Shown here piece by piece: positions 13,692 to 32,719 of a stretch of DNA of 39,753 nt. The notes below the pieces were generated by a model. It was not told the DNA's origin. It made no database searches and was given only the letters and a program-made list of their open reading frames with translations. Within the stretch, counting starts at the first letter, position 1; every line of letters starts with the position of its first letter. The DNA comes from Clostridia bacterium (GTDB lineage Bacteria; Bacillota; DSM-521; Neomoorellales; JACIYF01): contig JACIYF010000013.1 in assembly GCA_014360065.1 (NCBI GenBank), positions 1 through 39,753 on the forward strand, read 5' to 3'. A program made the position numbers and the translations under genes.

Positions 13692-14288
13692 ATGAGCTGG
13701 TCATTGTGTTTAATCTTCAGTTACATACTTGGTGCCGTTCCATTTGGCTATCTAGTCGGCCGTTACCTGGGAACTGACATTCGCAAATTTGGTAGTGGCA
13801 ACATAGGCACCACCAACGCTTTTCGAGTTCTGGGCGCGGGTCCAGGGTTGGTTGTCCTTTTCGGCGATGTGGCTAAAGGGGTTATTCCTGTCTTACTGGG
13901 GAGCCGGGTAGGTGGACCAACCTTAGCGGTTTTAGCCGGGATCCTAGCAGTTATTGGGCACAACTGGCCCATCTTTTTGAAGTTCCGAGGTGGAAGGGGA
14001 GTGGCGACAGGGGCAGGAATGTTGATTGCTCTGGCTCCGCTTGTTACCCTGATCTGCTTTTCAGTATGGATTGTGGTCGTATTGACAACTAGGTACGTTT
14101 CTCTTGGATCTATTGTTGCTGCCTGCAGTGCTCCCATCGTAATGTTATTGCTGCACCAGCCTTGGCAGTTTGTTCTGGTAACAATACTACTGGCTTTAGT
14201 CATAGTTTGGCGTCACCGGCCAAACCTAAAGAGGCTGTTGGCAGGAACTGAGTATAAGTTAGGGGATCGGGTCGGGAAAAGCAACTAG
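13692..14288 (+). CDS. plsY: Glycerol-3-phosphate acyltransferase PlsY
   Basis: 198 residues. An integral membrane enzyme that uses acyl-phosphate to acylate glycerol 3-phosphate at position 1. Motifs are GSGNIGTTNAFRVLG near 35-49, GHNWPIFLKFRGGRGVATG near 88-106, and the C-terminal WRHRPNLKRLLAGTE. About five membrane segments are visible. The start is ATG 13692, with a short AAAGGA Shine-Dalgarno. It lies 14 bp before gpsA, which makes its substrate. Confidence 0.95.
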   Translation: MSWSLCLIFSYILGAVPFGYLVGRYLGTDIRKFGSGNIGTTNAFRVLGAGPGLVVLFGDVAKGVIPVLLGSRVGGPTLAVLAGILAVIGHNWPIFLKFRGGRGVATGAGMLIALAPLVTLICFSVWIVVVLTTRYVSLGSIVAACSAPIVMLLLHQPWQFVLVTILLALVIVWRHRPNLKRLLAGTEYKLGDRVGKSN

Positions 14289-14302: not shown

Positions 14303-15310
14303 ATGCAAAGGTCGATTGCTGTTCTGGGGGCAGGGGGATGGGGAACGGCGCTTGCGCTTCTGTTAGCTGAGAAGAAGTACAAGGTGACGTTGTGGGCGCG
14401 CCGGCCAAGCTTTGCGGATAGACTCGCGTCTGTACGTGAAAATCAGGACTACTTGCCTGGTATCCGTTTGCCCAACAGCATTCAAATAACTAGTGATCTA
14501 GAACGTGCCGTTTACGGCTGCGATGTATTAATCCTGGCAGTTCCTTCCATGGGAGTTCGCTCCATAGCTCGGCGAATTAGCACCTTAGTTCACAGAAACC
14601 AAATCATAGTAAATGCTGCTAAAGGATTGGAACCAGATAGCCTATGCCGGCTGAGCCAGGTCATTGCGGCAGAGTTAGGCTCAGCATATGAGGATCGTAT
14701 TGTTGCCTTATCCGGCCCTACCCATGCAGAAGAAGTCTCTCGACACATGTTCACTGCTGCTGTGGTTAGCGGAACAGGCTGGTCCTCGGTTGAACTAGCC
14801 CAAGATGTGCTTATGGCCCCCTTTTTCCGGATATATACGAATCCCGATTTAACTGGAGTAGAAGTTGCCGGAGCCCTAAAAAACGTCATCGCCCTAGGTG
14901 CCGGGATATTGGAAGGCTTGGGATTGGGTGACAATAGTAAGGCAGCCTTGATAACTAGGGGTTTAGCAGAAATGGCTAGGTTAGGTGTAGCCTTAGGCGC
15001 CAATCCTGCAACATTTGCCGGGCTAGCAGGCTTGGGAGATTTGGTAGCGACTTGCACTAGCCCGCATAGCCGTAACCGACGAGCCGGGATAGCTTTGGGG
15101 CAAGGAAAACCATTACAGGCGATACTGGATGCGAGCCCTATGGTTATTGAGGGCATTCCCGCTACCTCGGCAGCTTGGAAAATGGCTCAAGAGTACGGTG
15201 TCGATATGCCTATCACTGAACAGGTCCACAGGATCATTTTTGAAAACCAGAAGCCCGAACGCAGTTTGGCCTTACTCATGGGCAGACCCAAAAAAGGTGA
15301 GTTTTTCTAG
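14303..15310 (+). CDS. gpsA: Glycerol-3-phosphate dehydrogenase [NAD(P)+]
   Basis: 335 residues. It reduces dihydroxyacetone phosphate to sn-glycerol 3-phosphate for phospholipid synthesis. The N-terminal dinucleotide motif is GAGGWGTALA (8-17). AAKGLE, SGPTHAEE, GALKNVIALGAGI, and the substrate-site block near GLAGLGDLVATCTSPHSRNR follow. The start is ATG 14303 with GAGAGGGG upstream. This enzyme makes the usual bacterial enantiomer, whereas the gene at 28641 should make the opposite sn-glycerol 1-phosphate. Confidence 0.96.
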   Translation: MQRSIAVLGAGGWGTALALLLAEKKYKVTLWARRPSFADRLASVRENQDYLPGIRLPNSIQITSDLERAVYGCDVLILAVPSMGVRSIARRISTLVHRNQIIVNAAKGLEPDSLCRLSQVIAAELGSAYEDRIVALSGPTHAEEVSRHMFTAAVVSGTGWSSVELAQDVLMAPFFRIYTNPDLTGVEVAGALKNVIALGAGILEGLGLGDNSKAALITRGLAEMARLGVALGANPATFAGLAGLGDLVATCTSPHSRNRRAGIALGQGKPLQAILDASPMVIEGIPATSAAWKMAQEYGVDMPITEQVHRIIFENQKPERSLALLMGRPKKGEFF

Positions 15311-25877: not shown

Positions 25878-26639
25878 TTGGAGGATCAGAGCTGGCCTCT
25901 CGCAGCTTTCCTTAGGCGAGCCCAGAATGGTGACCAAGGAGCCTACGAAGAACTGTTGCGAAGGTACTTGCCATTTATTCTCGCGGCGGTTGCCGATGTA
26001 GTCAACCGCCAGATCTCCGTGAAGGACGATGAGGCTAGCGCTGGGATACTGGCTTTTTCTGAGGCTATAAAGGCCTATCATGCCGGCAAAGGCAGGTTCC
26101 TACCCTTTGCTCGTACCGTGATTAGGAGACGCGTCTATGATTATCTTCGCAGACAGGCTAAGTTCGTGGCGGAGGTACCGTGTAGTCACCTCGATAGCCT
26201 CTCCTGTACCCAGATTCGGGAGCAAGCGGGTGAAGGGAGTTCATTTGCCAATTCAAGAGGTATAAGTGCATACGAAAAGGAGCTAGAGGCATTTGAGATA
26301 CGGGAAGAAATTGCCTGTTTAAGCCAGGAAATGAGGGATTTGGGTATAACCTTTGCCGATGTGGCAGATTCATCCCCGCGGCAGGAGGAGACAAAGAAAT
26401 TAGCTGTTAAAGCAGCTACCTGCATTAGTAAAAATGCCCAGCTTCTCAAATACATAAGGACTCGTAAAAAATTGCCCCTTAAGGAAATTGCTGAAGATCT
26501 GTTGAGGGATCAGAACCACAGCAGTCTTTCTAGCTTTCGAATTAGAAAGACCTTAGAAAGACATCGCGCCTATATCCTGGCAGTAGCACTCATTCTAGCC
26601 GGCGATTACATCCGGCTGAAAGCGTATGCCCGGTGGTGA
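25878..26639 (+). CDS. sigI: RNA polymerase sigma factor SigI
   Basis: 253 residues, sigma-70-like without the full four regions, as usual for SigI. Region 2 features lie in the N-terminal half (LPFILAAVADVV, AFSEAIKAYHAGKGRFLPFARTVIRRRVYDYLRR). The C-terminal SigI domain is around LLKYIRTRKKLPLKEIAEDLL and RKTLERHRAYILAVALIL. The start is TTG 25878 with AAAGGGTGG upstream. It overlaps rsgI (TGATG), the classical sigI-rsgI pair, where the membrane anti-sigma factor holds SigI. In clostridia such pairs answer to heat or to extracellular polysaccharide. Confidence 0.93.
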   Translation: MEDQSWPLAAFLRRAQNGDQGAYEELLRRYLPFILAAVADVVNRQISVKDDEASAGILAFSEAIKAYHAGKGRFLPFARTVIRRRVYDYLRRQAKFVAEVPCSHLDSLSCTQIREQAGEGSSFANSRGISAYEKELEAFEIREEIACLSQEMRDLGITFADVADSSPRQEETKKLAVKAATCISKNAQLLKYIRTRKKLPLKEIAEDLLRDQNHSSLSSFRIRKTLERHRAYILAVALILAGDYIRLKAYARW

Positions 26640-27757
26640 TGGTAGTGAGGGAAGATCATAGCAGGAGCGACCAGGAACGGGGTATACTCTTGGAACGTAA
26701 GGGCAACACAGGAGTAATTCTCTGCCCAGACGGAAGTTTTCGGCGGGTTAAAGTTGTTGGTCCATGCCCAATAGGAACTGAAGGCGATTTTGAAGCAACA
26801 AATGAACCTTCCGGTCACCTGTGGCGGCAACGACTACATCGACGAAGGTGGCTGGTATGTTCTCTCGGAGCAGCTTGTTTGCTTGTGGTTTTAGCTACAA
26901 GCTGGTTGAGACACGGCCCCTTAACCCAGGTTCCAAGCATCAATCCTGTTGCCACAGTAATTGCCTATGCTACGGTTGATATAAATCCTAGTTTGGAGTT
27001 TGGTATAGACGTTGCTGGCCGAGTCCAAAGCGCTAGGGGGTTGGACCGAGACGGGTCTTTGCTTCTTGAGAGCATAGAATACCGTGACCAGGATTTGGTA
27101 GCCGTTACTACTAAAGTACTTGAGCAAGCTGCAGCTAAAGGGTATTTACCACGGACCCGGAAAGGTTTAGTCTTAGTAACTGTTTCTCCCTGCTCGCAAG
27201 ACGCAAGTGTTCTCAAATTGCTGGACCCTAAAGTCCTCATGTTAAAGGAGGCCGTACGAGCTACCACTATCCGTCTAGGTTTGCAAGCGGAAGTAGGAGT
27301 GGTATATCTAGGCAGCAAGGCTGGCCCAAAACTTCGGGATAAAGCCAATGAGCTGCGTTCCTCTCCTGGCCGGGTAGCTTTTATCCTACAGCTGGAGGCA
27401 GAAGGGAAAGCTGTTCGTGTCAATAAGTCAGCTACCAAACCTATTGAAAAAATTGCCCAAGAAGCGGGAGCTCAGATTGGGCAAACGGTGAGGATGATGG
27501 AGGCAAGAAGCGGAGAGGAGTGGGAGCAGTTACTAGTCCAGCTGGCGCCCAAGGAAACAGATGAGAGAGTGCCGGAACCTCAAAAAGAGAGAATTCAGTC
27601 TCCGGAGCCAAAGAAACACCTTGATACCCTTTTCCACGGGAACGATCAGGGCCAAAACGAGGAAAGAGCCTTGGAAGATCGTGATAGTACAGCCAATAAA
27701 AAGAAAAGTAACCAAGAAAGGAAAGAAAACGCAAGGGCTTCAACCCAAAAGAAATAA
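26639..27757 (+). CDS. rsgI: Anti-sigma-I factor RsgI
   Basis: 372 residues from ATG 26639, coupled to the sigI stop; two GTG codons just upstream are alternatives. The N-terminal RsgI domain (about 12-55) should bind SigI. One membrane segment is at about 72-89. The outside part starts with the conserved VDINPS motif, whose Asn116-Pro117 bond is the known autoproteolysis site in RsgI proteins. It continues to a hydrophilic C-terminal tail (about 295-372) that is very rich in Glu, Lys, Gln and Arg. No carbohydrate-binding or peptidase domain is visible, unlike the multi-RsgI systems of cellulolytic clostridia. An intrinsic terminator follows. Confidence 0.9.
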   Translation: MVVREDHSRSDQERGILLERKGNTGVILCPDGSFRRVKVVGPCPIGTEGDFEATNEPSGHLWRQRLHRRRWLVCSLGAACLLVVLATSWLRHGPLTQVPSINPVATVIAYATVDINPSLEFGIDVAGRVQSARGLDRDGSLLLESIEYRDQDLVAVTTKVLEQAAAKGYLPRTRKGLVLVTVSPCSQDASVLKLLDPKVLMLKEAVRATTIRLGLQAEVGVVYLGSKAGPKLRDKANELRSSPGRVAFILQLEAEGKAVRVNKSATKPIEKIAQEAGAQIGQTVRMMEARSGEEWEQLLVQLAPKETDERVPEPQKERIQSPEPKKHLDTLFHGNDQGQNEERALEDRDSTANKKKSNQERKENARASTQKK

Positions 27758-27786: not shown

Positions 27787-27815
27787 AGCCTGGGGAGTAT
27801 ACCGGGCTTTTTATT
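27787..27815 (+). terminator. Intrinsic terminator after rsgI
   Basis: AGCCTGG (27787-27793) with CCGGGCT (27802-27808), one G-U pair, 8-base loop and tail TTTTTATTTTC. It separates sigI-rsgI from the cytidylyltransferase cluster. Confidence 0.8.
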
Positions 27816-27927: not shown

Positions 27928-28644
27928 GTGAAAGTCGTTATATTGGCCGCTGGATTAGGAAAACGTTTGGGTAGCTTGACTGCCACCTTGCCCAAAGCTC
28001 TTCTTCCAGTTGCTGGACGTCCGATCTTAGACTGGCAACTGAGTTCGCTGAACCGCCTTGGAATACCAGCTCGTGACATTATAGTGGTAGGTGGCCACCA
28101 GATTGAAGCTTTACAGTCGACTTTGCCTTCCGAAGTCGTACTAATATTTAACCCAGACTACGCTACTTCTAACAACATTGTTTCGTTGTATGCTGCACGA
28201 AAGCAAATAACCAACCAGGATTTTATACTTTTCAATTCGGATACTCTAGCACATCATCGCATAATAGAGCTGGTTTTTAAAGCCAATTCATTACCGACGG
28301 TAGTGATAGACAAATCTAAACCTTTGGTCGGAGAAGAAATGAGGGTTCGGGTAGTAGGAGACCAGGTACTGGGGTTTGGTAAGCACCTAACCAATGCCCA
28401 GGGAGAATATATAGGCATTGCTCGCTTTGATGCCTGGTCTTCGGCGTTACTGTTTAAGGAAATTGACGACATGGTTTGCCACGGGCTAACTGGGGAATGG
28501 TATGAAGCCGCCTTTGACCGCTTGTGCCGCCGCATCCCGGTATACGCCACTTACACCCAAGGTTGGCCCTGGATTGAGATCGACGATGCCAACGATCTCG
28601 AGCGGGCCAAGTCAATGTGGGTACCTGTGGCGATGGAACTATGA
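27928..28644 (+). CDS. Nucleotidyltransferase, probable CTP:phosphoalcohol cytidylyltransferase
   Basis: 238 residues, NTP_transferase fold. The N-terminus has LAAGLGKRLGSLTATLPKAL, the GxGxR...PK nucleotide-binding signature. FNPDYATSNNIVSLYAA near 73-89 resembles the NPxYxxTNNIYSLW block of LicC-type phosphocholine and 2-aminoethylphosphonate cytidylyltransferases, and FNSDTLAH supplies the metal-binding aspartate. A C-terminal WIEIDDANDLERA is also family-like. The start is GTG 27928. Its stop overlaps the G1P dehydrogenase start (ATGA), and a CDP-alcohol transferase follows, so the likely product is a CDP-alcohol. The substrate (glycerol 1-phosphate, inositol phosphate or other) is inferred only from neighbours. 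Confidence 0.8.
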   Translation: MKVVILAAGLGKRLGSLTATLPKALLPVAGRPILDWQLSSLNRLGIPARDIIVVGGHQIEALQSTLPSEVVLIFNPDYATSNNIVSLYAARKQITNQDFILFNSDTLAHHRIIELVFKANSLPTVVIDKSKPLVGEEMRVRVVGDQVLGFGKHLTNAQGEYIGIARFDAWSSALLFKEIDDMVCHGLTGEWYEAAFDRLCRRIPVYATYTQGWPWIEIDDANDLERAKSMWVPVAMEL

Positions 28645-29702
28645 TCACACGTGTTATAGATTTGCCTGTATTTTTCCGGGTAGGACAAGGACTCCTTGAA
28701 CAGGTTGGCTCCATCATTACCGAGGAGCACTTTGTTTTCCACCGTGTGCTTATAATCTCGGGCCCAGGGAGTACCAGCGCGGTTGCTCAGCTTGTGCTAG
28801 AAAGCCTAACTAAGGCCAATGCGTGCGTAGTCGGCTTACTGTCCGTAGAAGATAACTCGATAGAAACAGTAAACTCAATAAAGAAAAGAATTACTGACCT
28901 CGGCTCAGATCTCTTGGTAGGGGTTGGCGGGGGCAAGGTTTTGGACACGGGAAAGCTTGCTGCTTACGAAAAGAGGATCCCTTTTTTAGCTTTACCAACT
29001 GCCCTCTCCAATGATGGCATTGCTTCTCCAATTTCGGTCATCAAATTCCCCCAAGGTGTGCAGAGTATTGGCAGCCGGATTCCTTTAGGTATAATCGTAG
29101 ATACTGAAATAGTTAGCCGGGCACCGGTTAGGCTAACATCAGCTGGGGTGGGGGATCTTTTGTCAAATCTATCAGCTAGCGAGGATTGGCGCCTGGCGGC
29201 TAGGCATGGTAGAGACAAGGTTGATACCTTTGCGGATATGCTAGCTCGTAGTGCTTCTGAGAGGTTTCTATATTTAACGGAAGTGCGTGATGGGGGTCAA
29301 CGAGGAAGTGCTGAGTTTATAACTGCGTTGGCCGAGGGCTTGATTGCCAGTGGATTAGCTATGGCCATCGCGGGCACAAGCAGGCCCTGTAGTGGAGCTG
29401 AGCACCTAATTAGCCACGCTCTTGACCAGTTGCTGCCTAAGCCTTTCCCGCATGGGGTGCAAGTAGCAATTGCGACTCTTTGGGTTAATTGCCTACGGGG
29501 CAATGATTGGCAAACGTTGCGTAAGGTTTTCAAAGACCTGGGGATGGCCACAACCCCAGAGGAACTGGGTATAACCCAAGAACAATTTTTTCAAGCAATA
29601 ATAGATGCGCCCCACACTCGGCCCGGGCGATTTACTATTTTGGACTTACACAAGGACAAAAGAGAGTGGTTGAAAGTCTATGAAAAAGTATACTGCCAGT
29701 GA
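28641..29702 (+). CDS. sn-glycerol-1-phosphate dehydrogenase (EgsA/AraM-like)
   Basis: 353 residues, iron-containing/G1P dehydrogenase superfamily. It reduces dihydroxyacetone phosphate to sn-glycerol 1-phosphate, the enantiomer of archaeal lipids. Diagnostic blocks are VGGGKVLDTGKLAAY, PTALSNDGIASP (archaeal type S-x-DGIASP) and LTSAGVGDLLSN. The inferred metal ligands are Asp172, His255 (GAEHLISHALD) and His271 (PHGVQV). The start is ATG 28641, overlapping the NTP transferase stop by four bases. An upstream in-frame GTG at 28617 has no binding site. In Bacillus the homologue feeds PcrB to make heptaprenylglycerol phosphate; no pcrB is here. Confidence 0.87.
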   Translation: MITRVIDLPVFFRVGQGLLEQVGSIITEEHFVFHRVLIISGPGSTSAVAQLVLESLTKANACVVGLLSVEDNSIETVNSIKKRITDLGSDLLVGVGGGKVLDTGKLAAYEKRIPFLALPTALSNDGIASPISVIKFPQGVQSIGSRIPLGIIVDTEIVSRAPVRLTSAGVGDLLSNLSASEDWRLAARHGRDKVDTFADMLARSASERFLYLTEVRDGGQRGSAEFITALAEGLIASGLAMAIAGTSRPCSGAEHLISHALDQLLPKPFPHGVQVAIATLWVNCLRGNDWQTLRKVFKDLGMATTPEELGITQEQFFQAIIDAPHTRPGRFTILDLHKDKREWLKVYEKVYCQ

Positions 29703-30417
29703 AGTTCGTCGCGCGTCCAAGCAACGAGATTCTTGGTGGACGGTACTAGTTGTGGACCGTATCGCTATCCCCCTAGCCGCTTGGGTTGCCAGTTATACTA
29801 ACATCCATCCTACTACAATTACTTTGCTTTCCATTGGTGCAGGTCTAACTTCGGCTTGGTATTTTTACAGTTATGATGGCACTTACTTCCGTCTCGCCAT
29901 GGGGGCTGTCTTATATGAGCTATGCTTCCTACTTGATTGTATTGATGGTAAATTAGCCCGCCTAACTCATCGCGGATCCAAGTTGGGTGGTGTCCTTGAT
30001 GCTGTTGGTGACGTATTCATATTTTCGCTGAACCTATGGGCGCTGGCTTTTGGGTATCGGCAAGTAGGGCTTGGCCGGATGGACACCTATGTGATTGGGT
30101 TTTGGATACTATTCCTATTTTTCTTTCAGTTCCACATCAGGGTGCAGGTCTTTCGAATGCCGCTTATGGCCGAAGGGGGAAATAACCAGGTGGGTCCAAC
30201 CAGTACTTACCTGACAGGGTGGGCCAAGGTACTTAGCTTCTTGGATCGCCACAGGCTATCGTACTCACCGGTGAGCTTTGTTGAGATGGCTACGGCAGCG
30301 CTATTTCTGGGGCCATTAAGCGGTTATGTCTTGGAAGGATTGGTGGCTTGTGTTATTTTAGGTGTGGTAGCAGTCATATTCGCCATTCTTTCCATTGCGC
30401 TGCAAAAAGAATTTTGA
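29680..30417 (+). CDS. CDP-alcohol phosphatidyltransferase family membrane protein
   Basis: 245 residues with about six membrane helices. The complete family motif D-x2-D-G-x2-A-R-x8-G-x3-D-x3-D is present, with Asp86, Asp89, Asp107 and Asp111. These enzymes move a phosphoalcohol from a CDP-alcohol to a second alcohol, at the membrane. The gene overlaps the end of the G1P dehydrogenase gene by 23 bases. Unlike pgsA or pssA, it is coupled to a soluble cytidylyltransferase, a layout known from di-myo-inositol phosphate and phosphonolipid pathways. The acceptor cannot be told from the sequence. Confidence 0.88.
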   Translation: MKKYTASEVRRASKQRDSWWTVLVVDRIAIPLAAWVASYTNIHPTTITLLSIGAGLTSAWYFYSYDGTYFRLAMGAVLYELCFLLDCIDGKLARLTHRGSKLGGVLDAVGDVFIFSLNLWALAFGYRQVGLGRMDTYVIGFWILFLFFFQFHIRVQVFRMPLMAEGGNNQVGPTSTYLTGWAKVLSFLDRHRLSYSPVSFVEMATAALFLGPLSGYVLEGLVACVILGVVAVIFAILSIALQKEF

Positions 30418-30434
30418 GCACAGGAGGAAGTAAG

Positions 30435-31196
30435 GTGCAGGTCGATTACAGCCTAGCCGGAAGAACAGCTATAGTTACAGGTGCAAGTCGTGGCATAGGC
30501 AGGGCTACAGCCATTGCCTTAGCCGAAGCGGGAGCCAATCTCGTACTAATCGCTCGAAACGATAAACTATGCCAAGAAGTGGCTGAGACTATCCAAGGGT
30601 TTGGGCAAAAGGCGATGGTAATCGGTGCTGATATATCTGTGATAAGCCTACTAAAGGATATAGTTACAAAGGTGGTTCGGGAATACGGGCACATTGATAT
30701 TCTTGTAAATAACGCAGGTACTGCTATTACCAAGAGTGCGCTGGAACTGACGGAAACAGAATGGGACAAGGTGGTAGATCTTAACTTAAAAGCCACTTTC
30801 TTCATGAGCCAAGCGGTTGCTCCGGAAATGATCAAACGAGGAAAAGGAAAGATAATCAATATTGCTTCAGTCTTAGGGCTAGTAGGTGAACCTCAAGTTA
30901 TTCCTTACTGTGCCAGTAAAGGTGGAGTGATCCAGTTGACTAGGGCCTTGGCAGCTGAGTGGGCCCGCTATGGTATCCAGGTAAATGCTGTAGCCCCTGG
31001 CTATGCCAGGACTGCTATGAACGAGGCTGAGCTAGAAAATCAAAAGGTTTTAGACCATATTATTCGGAAAATCCCCCTGAGGCGTTTAGCTGATGTCAAG
31101 GAGATTGCTCGAAGTGTCGTTTTTCTCGCGTCTGACGCAGCCAACTATATCACTGGAGCCGTGTTGCCGGTGGATGGAGGTTGGACGGCCGTGTAG
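30435..31196 (+). CDS. Short-chain dehydrogenase/reductase (FabG-like SDR)
   Basis: 253 residues, classical SDR. The cofactor motif TGASRGIG is at 15-22, NNAG at 92-95, and the catalytic Ser145, Tyr158 and Lys162 are in place; the C-terminus is GAVLPVDGGW. The start is GTG 30435 with AGGAGG (30422-30427), 17 bp after the CDP-alcohol transferase, so it is probably the fourth gene of that operon. It may act on a keto form of the headgroup alcohol or be an unrelated acyl reductase. Substrate prediction is not possible by eye. Confidence 0.88.
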   Translation: MQVDYSLAGRTAIVTGASRGIGRATAIALAEAGANLVLIARNDKLCQEVAETIQGFGQKAMVIGADISVISLLKDIVTKVVREYGHIDILVNNAGTAITKSALELTETEWDKVVDLNLKATFFMSQAVAPEMIKRGKGKIINIASVLGLVGEPQVIPYCASKGGVIQLTRALAAEWARYGIQVNAVAPGYARTAMNEAELENQKVLDHIIRKIPLRRLADVKEIARSVVFLASDAANYITGAVLPVDGGWTAV

Positions 31197-31276
31197 GCTA
31201 ACCATGTGCCACCCACACGCATATACTGTGGGCAGTAAGTATGGAGTGCAAGATTAGTGAGGTCAAGGGTGATTGA

Positions 31277-31417
31277 ATGTCAGGCTTCATGCGATGCCCA
31301 GTGTGTGGGTGGCAAGGACTTCCAGGCGAAATCGACTGGTTTTGTGATAGCGACTGGCTGCTCTTAGTGGCAAGATGTCCCCAATGCTTGTACCTTGCTC
31401 CCCTTGAAACCTTTTAA
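31277..31417 (+). CDS. 46-residue zinc-ribbon protein
   Basis: A short frame from ATG 31277 to TAA 31415-31417, with AAGGG (31265-31269) seven bases before the start. It encodes MSGFMRCPVCGWQGLP at the N-terminus and later RCPQC, two CPxC knuckles 27 residues apart. That is a typical zinc-ribbon layout. The segment between is acidic and Trp-rich. It follows the SDR by 80 bp and converges on the thioesterase gene with a four-base overlap of stops. The function is unknown. The cysteine pairs and ribosome site make chance unlikely. Confidence 0.65.
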   Translation: MSGFMRCPVCGWQGLPGEIDWFCDSDWLLLVARCPQCLYLAPLETF

Positions 31418-31824
31418 GGGGAAAAGCTATTAACTATGTAGGTCGCAGTGGCTGTAGCAACTAAGCGGTTATTCTTGTCCTTCAATTCAGCCCAGCCGAC
31501 CATGATTCGTTTGCCTTTCTTAAGCAGCCTAGCTTCGCAGATTATGTCACTGTCTCGAGCTGGAGCCAGGAAGTTTATTTTCATTTCAACCGTTGAATGG
31601 ATTTCACTGTCTGGTGCAATACTCTTGATGGCTAGAGCTACCGTAGAATCCGCTAAAGACGCCAATGCTCCCCCATGTACAGTACCATATAGCTGAGTTA
31701 TTTCTTTTCGAAAAGGCAGTCTGACTCTGGCTTGCCCCCCGTGGGCTTCCAGAGGTTCCATCCCCAGCAACCCCCAATAGGGACTCAAATCCCCGATATG
31801 CCTTGCCACCTGATCACTAATCAT
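31414..31824 (-). CDS. PaaI-type hotdog thioesterase
   Basis: 136 residues, single hotdog domain. The YGTVHGGALASLADSTVALA stretch has the HGG motif (His50-Gly52) and Asp59, the usual catalytic or CoA-contacting positions in PaaI/YdiI-like acyl-CoA thioesterases. The start is ATG 31824 with GGGAGG upstream on the minus strand. It is divergent from the ytrH-like gene. The acyl substrate is unknown; aryl-CoA or short-chain acyl-CoA are typical. Confidence 0.88.
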   Translation of the reverse strand: MISDQVARHIGDLSPYWGLLGMEPLEAHGGQARVRLPFRKEITQLYGTVHGGALASLADSTVALAIKSIAPDSEIHSTVEMKINFLAPARDSDIICEARLLKKGKRIMVGWAELKDKNNRLVATATATYIVNSFSP

Positions 31825-31919
31825 TAGCGGAAACCTCCCATCCCTTGAAGGTTTGGAAAGTTATTTTCAGACATATAATGTCACTGGCAATTTCCTTCCA
31901 CAAAGGGGATGATACCTTC

Positions 31920-32252
31920 GTGGAAACGTTTTGGCAACGGTTAATCTTAGTTGCTTGTGTTGCTTCAGGAGTAGTGGTAGGAGCGTCCATGGCAGGTATG
32001 TTGGCGGCACTTCTAGTGGGGCGTCCGCCTTTATTGGTGATGGCAGTAGTAGCCCAGGAGATCAAAGTCTGGGCCATTGCGGCGGCCATTGGCGGCACGT
32101 TTAGTACCATAGAGATACTCGAAAGCGGCATCTTTCAAGGGCAATTCTTTGGGTTAGCCAAGCAGCTATTGATCATGCTGGCAAGCTTCCTAGGGGCTCA
32201 ACTTGGGGTTTGGCTAATCAAAATGCTTGCAGGAGGACCACCGCAAGCGTGA
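31920..32252 (+). CDS. ytrH: YtrH-family sporulation membrane protein
   Basis: 110 residues from GTG 31920, chosen because AAAGGGG (31902-31908) precedes it and the length matches Bacillus YtrH (113). Family blocks are GVVVGASMAGMLAALLVGRPP, KVWAIAAAIGGTFSTIE and LLIMLASFLGAQLG. Three hydrophobic segments are visible. YtrH is needed for efficient sporulation in Bacillus and is made under sigma-E. TATAAT (31874-31879) with a poor TTTGGA -35, or a CATATAAT sigma-E-like -10 in the same place, may drive it. It overlaps the next gene (GTGA). Confidence 0.85.
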   Translation: METFWQRLILVACVASGVVVGASMAGMLAALLVGRPPLLVMAVVAQEIKVWAIAAAIGGTFSTIEILESGIFQGQFFGLAKQLLIMLASFLGAQLGVWLIKMLAGGPPQA

Positions 32253-32719
32253 GGAAACAAATCGCCATGCTGATTCTTGGAGCCATAATAGGCATGGCAG
32301 TGACTGCCATCCGCGTGGGTGGTCAGGTCGATGTTTTATGGATTGAGAACTCTAGATTGCTGGACGAGCTCCGGTCCAGAACCGAACGGTTGCGTTTGCT
32401 GGAAGCCCAGATCAGTAAGCAATGTTACTTACGGGTCACTTCCGTTGAACCCCATGTTTCATTGAAAAGAGCATTTAATAGTGCTGAAGCCCAATCCATA
32501 TGCCTCGCCGTAGAGAGGCAAATTGCAGAAATACTAAGCCCATTGCTGGGCAAAGAAGTTAAAAGCTTAGACCCCACCCTGGTCATGCAGATACTGGACC
32601 AGCGAAGGGTTCAAGTAAACAAACAAAATTATGAGTTGCTCATTAAAACTTTGATTCTGAGTGAGAGATTAGTAGTATACGTCGAAGCCAAGCCTTTGGC
32701 GATAGCCATGGATTCTTAA
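32249..32719 (+). CDS. YtrI-like sporulation membrane protein
   Basis: 156 residues from GTG 32249, overlapping the ytrH stop, with AGGAGG (32231-32236) upstream. One N-terminal membrane segment (about 4-22) is followed by a short coiled coil (ENSRLLDELRSRTERLRLLE) and an alpha/beta domain without recognised motifs. Position after ytrH, size and topology (YtrI is 167 residues in Bacillus) support a YtrI role, but sequence similarity is weak by eye. A promoter for korDABC follows, so this gene probably ends the pair. Confidence 0.6.
   Translation: MRKQIAMLILGAIIGMAVTAIRVGGQVDVLWIENSRLLDELRSRTERLRLLEAQISKQCYLRVTSVEPHVSLKRAFNSAEAQSICLAVERQIAEILSPLLGKEVKSLDPTLVMQILDQRRVQVNKQNYELLIKTLILSERLVVYVEAKPLAIAMDS

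Follow-up and report, generated by a model that had tools for sequence, protein, structure and literature searches.

The 39,753-nt stretch of DNA analysed here (the window; contig JACIYF010000013.1 of the Clostridia bacterium assembly GCA_014360065.1) carries at positions 27928-31196 four genes, all on the plus strand, for a LicC-like nucleotidyltransferase (NTPT), an sn-glycerol-1-phosphate dehydrogenase (G1PDH), a cytidine diphosphate (CDP)-alcohol phosphotransferase (CDP-OH) and a short-chain dehydrogenase/reductase (SDR). The first three form a conserved set, found in distant bacteria and apparently uncharacterised: a literature search, most subscription literature lying outside its scope, found neither a description of their function nor a published G1P cytidylyltransferase. 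Gene content and order, conservation and active-site motifs are observed; from these we infer substrates, stereochemistry and acceptor and read the three genes, with about an even chance of being right, as a module that would supply CDP-glycerol based on sn-glycerol 1-phosphate (G1P) to the cell envelope. The cluster comprises:

27928-28644, plus strand: LicC-like (COG1213-type) NTPT, proposed CTP:glycerol-1-phosphate cytidylyltransferase (GTG start, 238 aa; family matches)
28641-29702, plus strand: G1PDH (ATG start, a longer GTG start at 28617 being possible; family model and motifs)
29680-30417, plus strand: class I CDP-OH with about six transmembrane helices, AF2299/DIPPS-like, proposed CDP-glycerol-using glycerophosphotransferase (ATG start, 245 aa)
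30422-30427, plus strand: AGGAGG ribosome-binding site of the SDR gene (read from sequence)
30435-31196, plus strand: SDR oxidoreductase, gluconate 5-dehydrogenase/FabG-like (GTG start, 253 aa; co-directional with the other three)

The NTPT and G1PDH genes overlap by 4 bases (ATGA; ATG at 28641, TGA at 28642-28644) and the G1PDH and CDP-OH genes by 23 bases (29680-29702), while 17 bp separate CDP-OH from the GTG of the SDR gene at 30435. Open reading frames and sequence confirm this layout, including the AGGAGG, as given in a preliminary description of the stretch, and profile matches uphold the assignment of the genes to the LicC-like, G1PDH, CDP-OH and SDR families that it had proposed.

The second gene very probably encodes, judging by family model and motifs, an sn-glycerol-1-phosphate dehydrogenase (EgsA/AraM) converting dihydroxyacetone phosphate (DHAP) to G1P. 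The protein matches Fe-ADH_2 (5e-33) and the NCBIfam G1P dehydrogenase model NF002022 (8.7e-88, 294.6 bits, residues 11-344), a score that lies below the equivalog cut-off of 413 bits, so that it is not a certified equivalog member. The score with the glycerol dehydrogenase model PRK09423 is far lower, at 88.5 bits. The metal-ligand positions D180, H263 and H279 (numbered from GTG 28617) are kept and are conserved across 11 relatives, all of which match NF002022 too, and in archaeal solved homologs; the motif SNDGIASP is also present. The nearest solved relatives are 3ce9, deposited as a glycerol dehydrogenase, followed by the G1P dehydrogenases 5fb3, 4rgq and 4rfl.

NTPT matches NTP_transf_3 (2.4e-13), and its nearest solved relative is LicC (1jyk, E 3.6e-14), whose type of motifs it keeps (LAAGLGKRL, PKALLPV, NSD, W-EIDD). 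The best curated match is the IPCT half of IPCT-DIPPS, and a profile of the cluster NTPT compared with the Protein Data Bank (PDB) finds first 6pd1, an NTPT fused to a class V aminotransferase, and second LicC. The IPCT and 6pd1 matches would also fit an enzyme that activates another alcohol phosphate (inositol-1-phosphate, phosphocholine, 2-hydroxyethylphosphonate or phosphoglycerate) in a neighbourhood that is not one pathway. We regard this as highly improbable: pairing with G1PDH recurs across families and two phyla, and the genome contains no clear phosphoenolpyruvate (PEP) mutase. A phosphonate pathway was rejected on the latter ground, the sole strong PF13714 hit resembling methylisocitrate lyase in its EDQVWPKRCGH motif and its neighbours and the other falling below the cut-off.

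CDP-OH matches CDP-OH_P_transf (4e-10) and has a complete catalytic motif at residue 86 (DCIDGKLAR..G...D...D), which agrees with the class I pattern D-x2-DG-x2-AR-x8/9-G-x3-D-x3-D. An AlphaFold2 model, built from five sequences (mean pLDDT 77) and compared by Foldseek, has the six-helix fold of this class and is nearest to AF2299 of Archaeoglobus fulgidus, then to IPCT-DIPPS and then to phosphatidylinositol phosphate synthases. AF2299, which shares the complete motif, is the top relative by both fold (4q7c, E 1e-6) and profile (3.7e-24). It differs in carrying an N-terminal cytidylyltransferase-like domain in the same chain, whereas the window has a gene of its own for NTPT and a G1PDH besides. 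IPCT-DIPPS is similar to NTPT in its IPCT half and to CDP-OH in its DIPPS half. The window differs from it in that the genes are unfused and paired with G1PDH rather than with inositol phosphate synthase; the separate proteins score 72.9 and 40.8 bits, against an NF041135 cut-off of 580. No match to the PgsA model TIGR00560 was found for CDP-OH.

In the pathway that we propose, G1PDH would reduce DHAP to G1P, and NTPT, which by its genomic context is probably a CTP:G1P cytidylyltransferase, would couple G1P with cytidine triphosphate (CTP) to give CDP-glycerol, the enantiomer opposite to the TagD product. The six-helix CDP-OH would then transfer glycerophosphate from CDP-glycerol to an envelope-bound acceptor; as in pathways of the teichoic acid type, this may be a glycolipid or a glycan linked to a lipid. 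The scheme resembles the TagD/TagF route to wall teichoic acid in its CDP-glycerol donor and in the TagF-family enzymes that accompany related pairs; it differs in using a COG1213-type NTPT in place of the COG0615 TagD and, as predicted, sn-1 rather than sn-3 glycerophosphate. Both regiochemistry and handedness of the CDP-glycerol are deduced from the presence of G1PDH.

The three-gene module is not peculiar to the source organism. Our sample comprised 399 genomes of the phylum, including the window's own; order relatives numbered 15. A profile of the cluster G1PDH matched 11 of the 399, own genome included, and none of the 15 order relatives, and in nine of the 11 (9/399) NTPT adjoins G1PDH. 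The order NTPT-G1PDH-CDP-OH is found in the window and in G090, and in G094 and G184, where a MurJ gene separates CDP-OH from the other two. At loci L105-L107, from three congeneric genomes, NTPT and G1PDH are accompanied by WecG/TagA, a DUF5693 gene and a weak match to PF04464, and in G324 and G029 PF04464 stands with G1PDH-NTPT, to which G029 adds a haloacid dehalogenase (HAD) gene. Beyond the phylum, Streptomyces fungicidicus p1 and Streptomyces BHT-5-2 p1 share the order DUF5941(CDP-OH)-NTPT-G1PDH-CDP-OH-GT2-ABC permease-ABC ATPase, and Nonomuraea follows it up to the family 2 glycosyltransferase (GT2). Since the first three genes recur in Streptomyces in the same order and with an identical 23-base overlap between G1PDH and CDP-OH, the arrangement goes beyond chance. 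A search for CDP-OH across genome contigs gave at least four loci, a count that says little on distribution.

The preliminary description had treated all four genes as one set to be sought in other genomes. The first three do recur, in Bacillota, Streptomyces and Nonomuraea, but the SDR stands beside them in none of the homologous loci compared in these groups, and a conserved four-gene unit is therefore rejected. The SDR (adh_short_C2, 1e-67) is probably a mere co-transcribed neighbour, or it prepares the acceptor.

The Streptomyces araM-tagGH locus is like the window in gene order and short overlaps. It differs in that identities are 20-35% by gene and in that the window is without the DUF5941 protein, the GT2 and the ABC exporter; moreover, the window CDP-OH is nearer to a separate actinobacterial CDP-OH gene (L127) and to the DUF5941-type domain than to the third Streptomyces gene. 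The L127 gene (L127:8004-8882), on a Streptomyces plasmid, shares 50% identity with the window CDP-OH across 105 residues; it is surrounded by transposases and lies upstream of two Stealth-family genes. The DUF5941 protein encoded 5' of NTPT at L125:6441-8258 has a second CDP-alcohol phosphotransferase domain, giving two such enzymes at that locus.

The genomic association with PF04464, the CDP-glycerol glycerophosphotransferase family, bears on the product. PF04464 occurs in seven of the nine genomes that carry the NTPT/G1PDH pair, and all eight copies detected are at the pair's locus; three of them, in the genus with loci L105-L107, match weakly (E 5e-8 to 7e-11). In the two remaining pair-carriers, the window's own genome and G090, the CDP-OH gene adjoins the pair. 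None of the 15 order relatives, which are without the pair, has PF04464, while G223, with G1PDH and no pair, has two copies. The association gives Fisher p values of 4e-4 by genome and 0.047 by genus, which are descriptive, the genomes having been picked from hits. Because PF04464 copies sit at pair loci and CDP-OH is adjacent where PF04464 is absent, this linkage supports CDP-glycerol as the common product. The earlier suggestion that G1P is converted to CDP-glycerol thus gains support by context, from PF04464 at pair loci in seven genomes and from the nearest solved CDP-OH, which binds CDP-glycerol.

The pneumococcal gtp1-gtp2-gtp3 set makes CDP-2-glycerol, and the likeness, a dehydrogenase and a nucleotidyltransferase that supply a glycerophosphotransferase, raises the possibility of the same product here, with the dehydrogenase acting on dihydroxyacetone instead of DHAP. 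The gene set wchX-gtp1-gtp2-gtp3, for a glycerol phosphotransferase, dehydrogenase, nucleotidyltransferase and phosphotransferase (PMC3493582), is paralleled at L110 by PF04464-G1PDH-NTPT-HAD and at L109 by the same order interrupted by other genes. These are two diverged loci of the one genome G029, in an arrangement like the pneumococcal one. The window differs in lacking gtp3 and in having CDP-OH in place of the glycerophosphotransferase WchX: no HAD-type Gtp3 gene was found at 27928-31824, whereas HAD genes are present at L109 and L110, and no such partner accompanies the other Bacillota CDP-OH clusters or those of Streptomyces. As the window dehydrogenase also scores much higher with the G1PDH model than with that for glycerol dehydrogenase, we consider a CDP-2-glycerol pathway improbable.

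The neighbours of homologous loci point to the envelope. They include WecG/TagA (L105), MurJ and glycosyltransferases (L013, L018) and, in Streptomyces, GT2 and a TagGH-like ABC exporter beside the module (L125). Where relatives of CDP-OH occur apart from the pair, they too are set in glycan loci (L016, L017) or close to Stealth proteins or to a glycosyltransferase together with a sulfotransferase (L127, L130). A pan-proteome study reported araM/tagG/tagH synteny across Streptomyces and linked the locus to teichoic acid synthesis, without demonstrating the function of any enzyme (PMC13118837). On these grounds an acceptor belonging to the cell envelope has, in our estimate, a one-in-two chance.

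CDP-OH might instead transfer glycerophosphate to glycerol, inositol or another polyol, which the SDR might make, giving osmolytes such as diglycerol phosphate or a glycerophospho-inositol-like compound. Its six-helix fold suits this idea, as do its closest relatives, AF2299 and DIPPS, whose source is a solute-making archaeon. The AF2299 structure has CDP-glycerol in a hydrophilic pocket of small size, and neither this enzyme nor DIPPS processes lipids (PMC8633023, PMC4634129). In the order relative G059 a fused IPCT-DIPPS gene adjoins that for inositol-3-phosphate synthase (L036:3586-6008), likely a pathway to the osmolyte di-myo-inositol phosphate; G094 and G184 also encode a DIPPS-like fusion. 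Glycosyltransferases, MurJ, TagA, PF04464 or a TagGH-like exporter, with which homologous clusters sit, would be needless for a cytosolic solute, and we judge this explanation unlikely.

The preliminary description offered, as an alternative to such a solute, a phospholipid with unusual headgroup stereochemistry, which is probably backwards. Lipoteichoic acid (LTA) carries sn-glycerol-1-phosphate from phosphatidylglycerol (PG), whereas wall teichoic acid takes sn-glycerol-3-phosphate (G3P) from CDP-glycerol (PMC5974469). As sn-glycerol-1-phosphate is the form already present in PG and LTA of bacteria (PMC5974469 and established PG chemistry), CDP-glycerol derived from G1P would, with diacylglycerol (DAG), probably yield ordinary PG. 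The unusual feature is then probably the enantiomer of CDP-glycerol and not that of any resulting PG headgroup. Were a glycan the acceptor instead of DAG, the polymer would have LTA handedness.

The module could accordingly be a one-step route from CDP-(sn-1)-glycerol and DAG to PG, replacing PgsA and phosphatidylglycerophosphate phosphatase. Such a route would share with PgsA the CDP-alcohol phosphotransferase superfamily and possibly the PG isomer formed; it would differ in donor (CDP-glycerol rather than CDP-DAG) and acceptor (DAG rather than G3P). Besides the matching stereochemistry (PMC5974469), the gene content of the window's genome (99% complete, 242 contigs) speaks for it. No pgsA (TIGR00560) was detected there, although a very divergent one could escape the search filter, and the cluster CDP-OH is the only PF01066 protein detected. 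PlsC, PlsY, GpsA, CdsA and the PG-dependent Lgt are all present. G094 and G184, assembled in 2-3 contigs, likewise have no CDP-alcohol enzymes but the DIPPS-like fusion and the cluster CDP-OH.

Same-order relatives tell against it. Several, two of them single-contig, show no PF01066 protein (eight genomes of the order in all); at the rimO locus of ten same-order genomes (L082-L091) there is no pgsA between rimO and the following gene, where G372 has one (compared with L039:6112-6630). The same synteny check found no RimO ortholog in the window's own genome. The pgsA-less relatives retain cdsA and mostly lgt, yet the cluster is in none of those sampled, so another PG route must exist in them, and we reject the argument that pgsA absence proves a PG role for the cluster. 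In G090, furthermore, the cluster coexists with a PgsA of the usual kind. CDP-alcohol enzymes that act on lipid acceptors typically have an additional 3-4 helices (PMC4634129), in contrast to the six-helix CDP-OH, and the fold of the model matches the DAG-using cholinephosphotransferase poorly (E ~2). We find the one-step PG route quite unlikely, and at least as unlikely is the wider proposition that members of two or more bacterial phyla produce the archaeal-enantiomer CDP-glycerol from G1P and that here, in an apparently pgsA-less organism, the genes replace PgsA by a one-step Kennedy-type route to PG of normal stereochemistry.

Several points weigh against the envelope module that we favour. 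The substrate choice of NTPT is unreadable from sequence, its relatives using phosphocholine, inositol-1-phosphate, 2-aminoethylphosphonate or phosphoglycerate, and CpgD, likewise of COG1213 type, did not accept glycerol-1-phosphate (PMC12275187). Six-helix CDP-alcohol enzymes have been described as acting on soluble acceptors (PMC4634129). Identities between loci are only 30-45%. No PF04464 was detected in the window's genome, and no glycosyltransferase, flippase or exporter adjoins the window locus; PF04464, TagA, exporter or flippase are seen nearby at relatives' loci only.

The G+C content and codon usage of the cluster are those of the window, and a recent foreign origin, of which composition shows no sign, is rejected. 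A sigI-rsgI pair (25878-27757) lies directly 5'; Pfam recognises the N-terminal and central domains of the RsgI-like protein and no C-terminal sensor domain. One further element sets this pair apart from the cluster:

27787-27808, plus strand: terminator-like hairpin between rsgI and the cluster (consensus match only; hairpin count not above shuffles)

Across the region, promoter-like and terminator-like matches are no more numerous than in shuffled sequence. Downstream, 31845-32719 holds a YtrH-like sporulation protein and then an overlapping 169-aa open reading frame without a Pfam match, possibly YtrI. GpsA, whose presence had been pointed out before, is at 14303-15307 and PlsY at 13692-14285; Der, PlsC and SpoIVA are encoded close by.

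Among phospholipid enantiomers G1P is counted as the archaeal one, and few uses of it are known in bacteria. If the proposed module is correct, a bacterial CTP:G1P cytidylyltransferase would explain the persistence of G1PDH genes in many bacteria, and its CDP-glycerol would have the handedness opposite to that of TagD's. Envelope polymers of LTA-like stereochemistry, built from a cytosolic nucleotide donor, would be predicted. Through the module, it becomes directly testable which enantiomer of CDP-glycerol bacteria make and what they attach it to.

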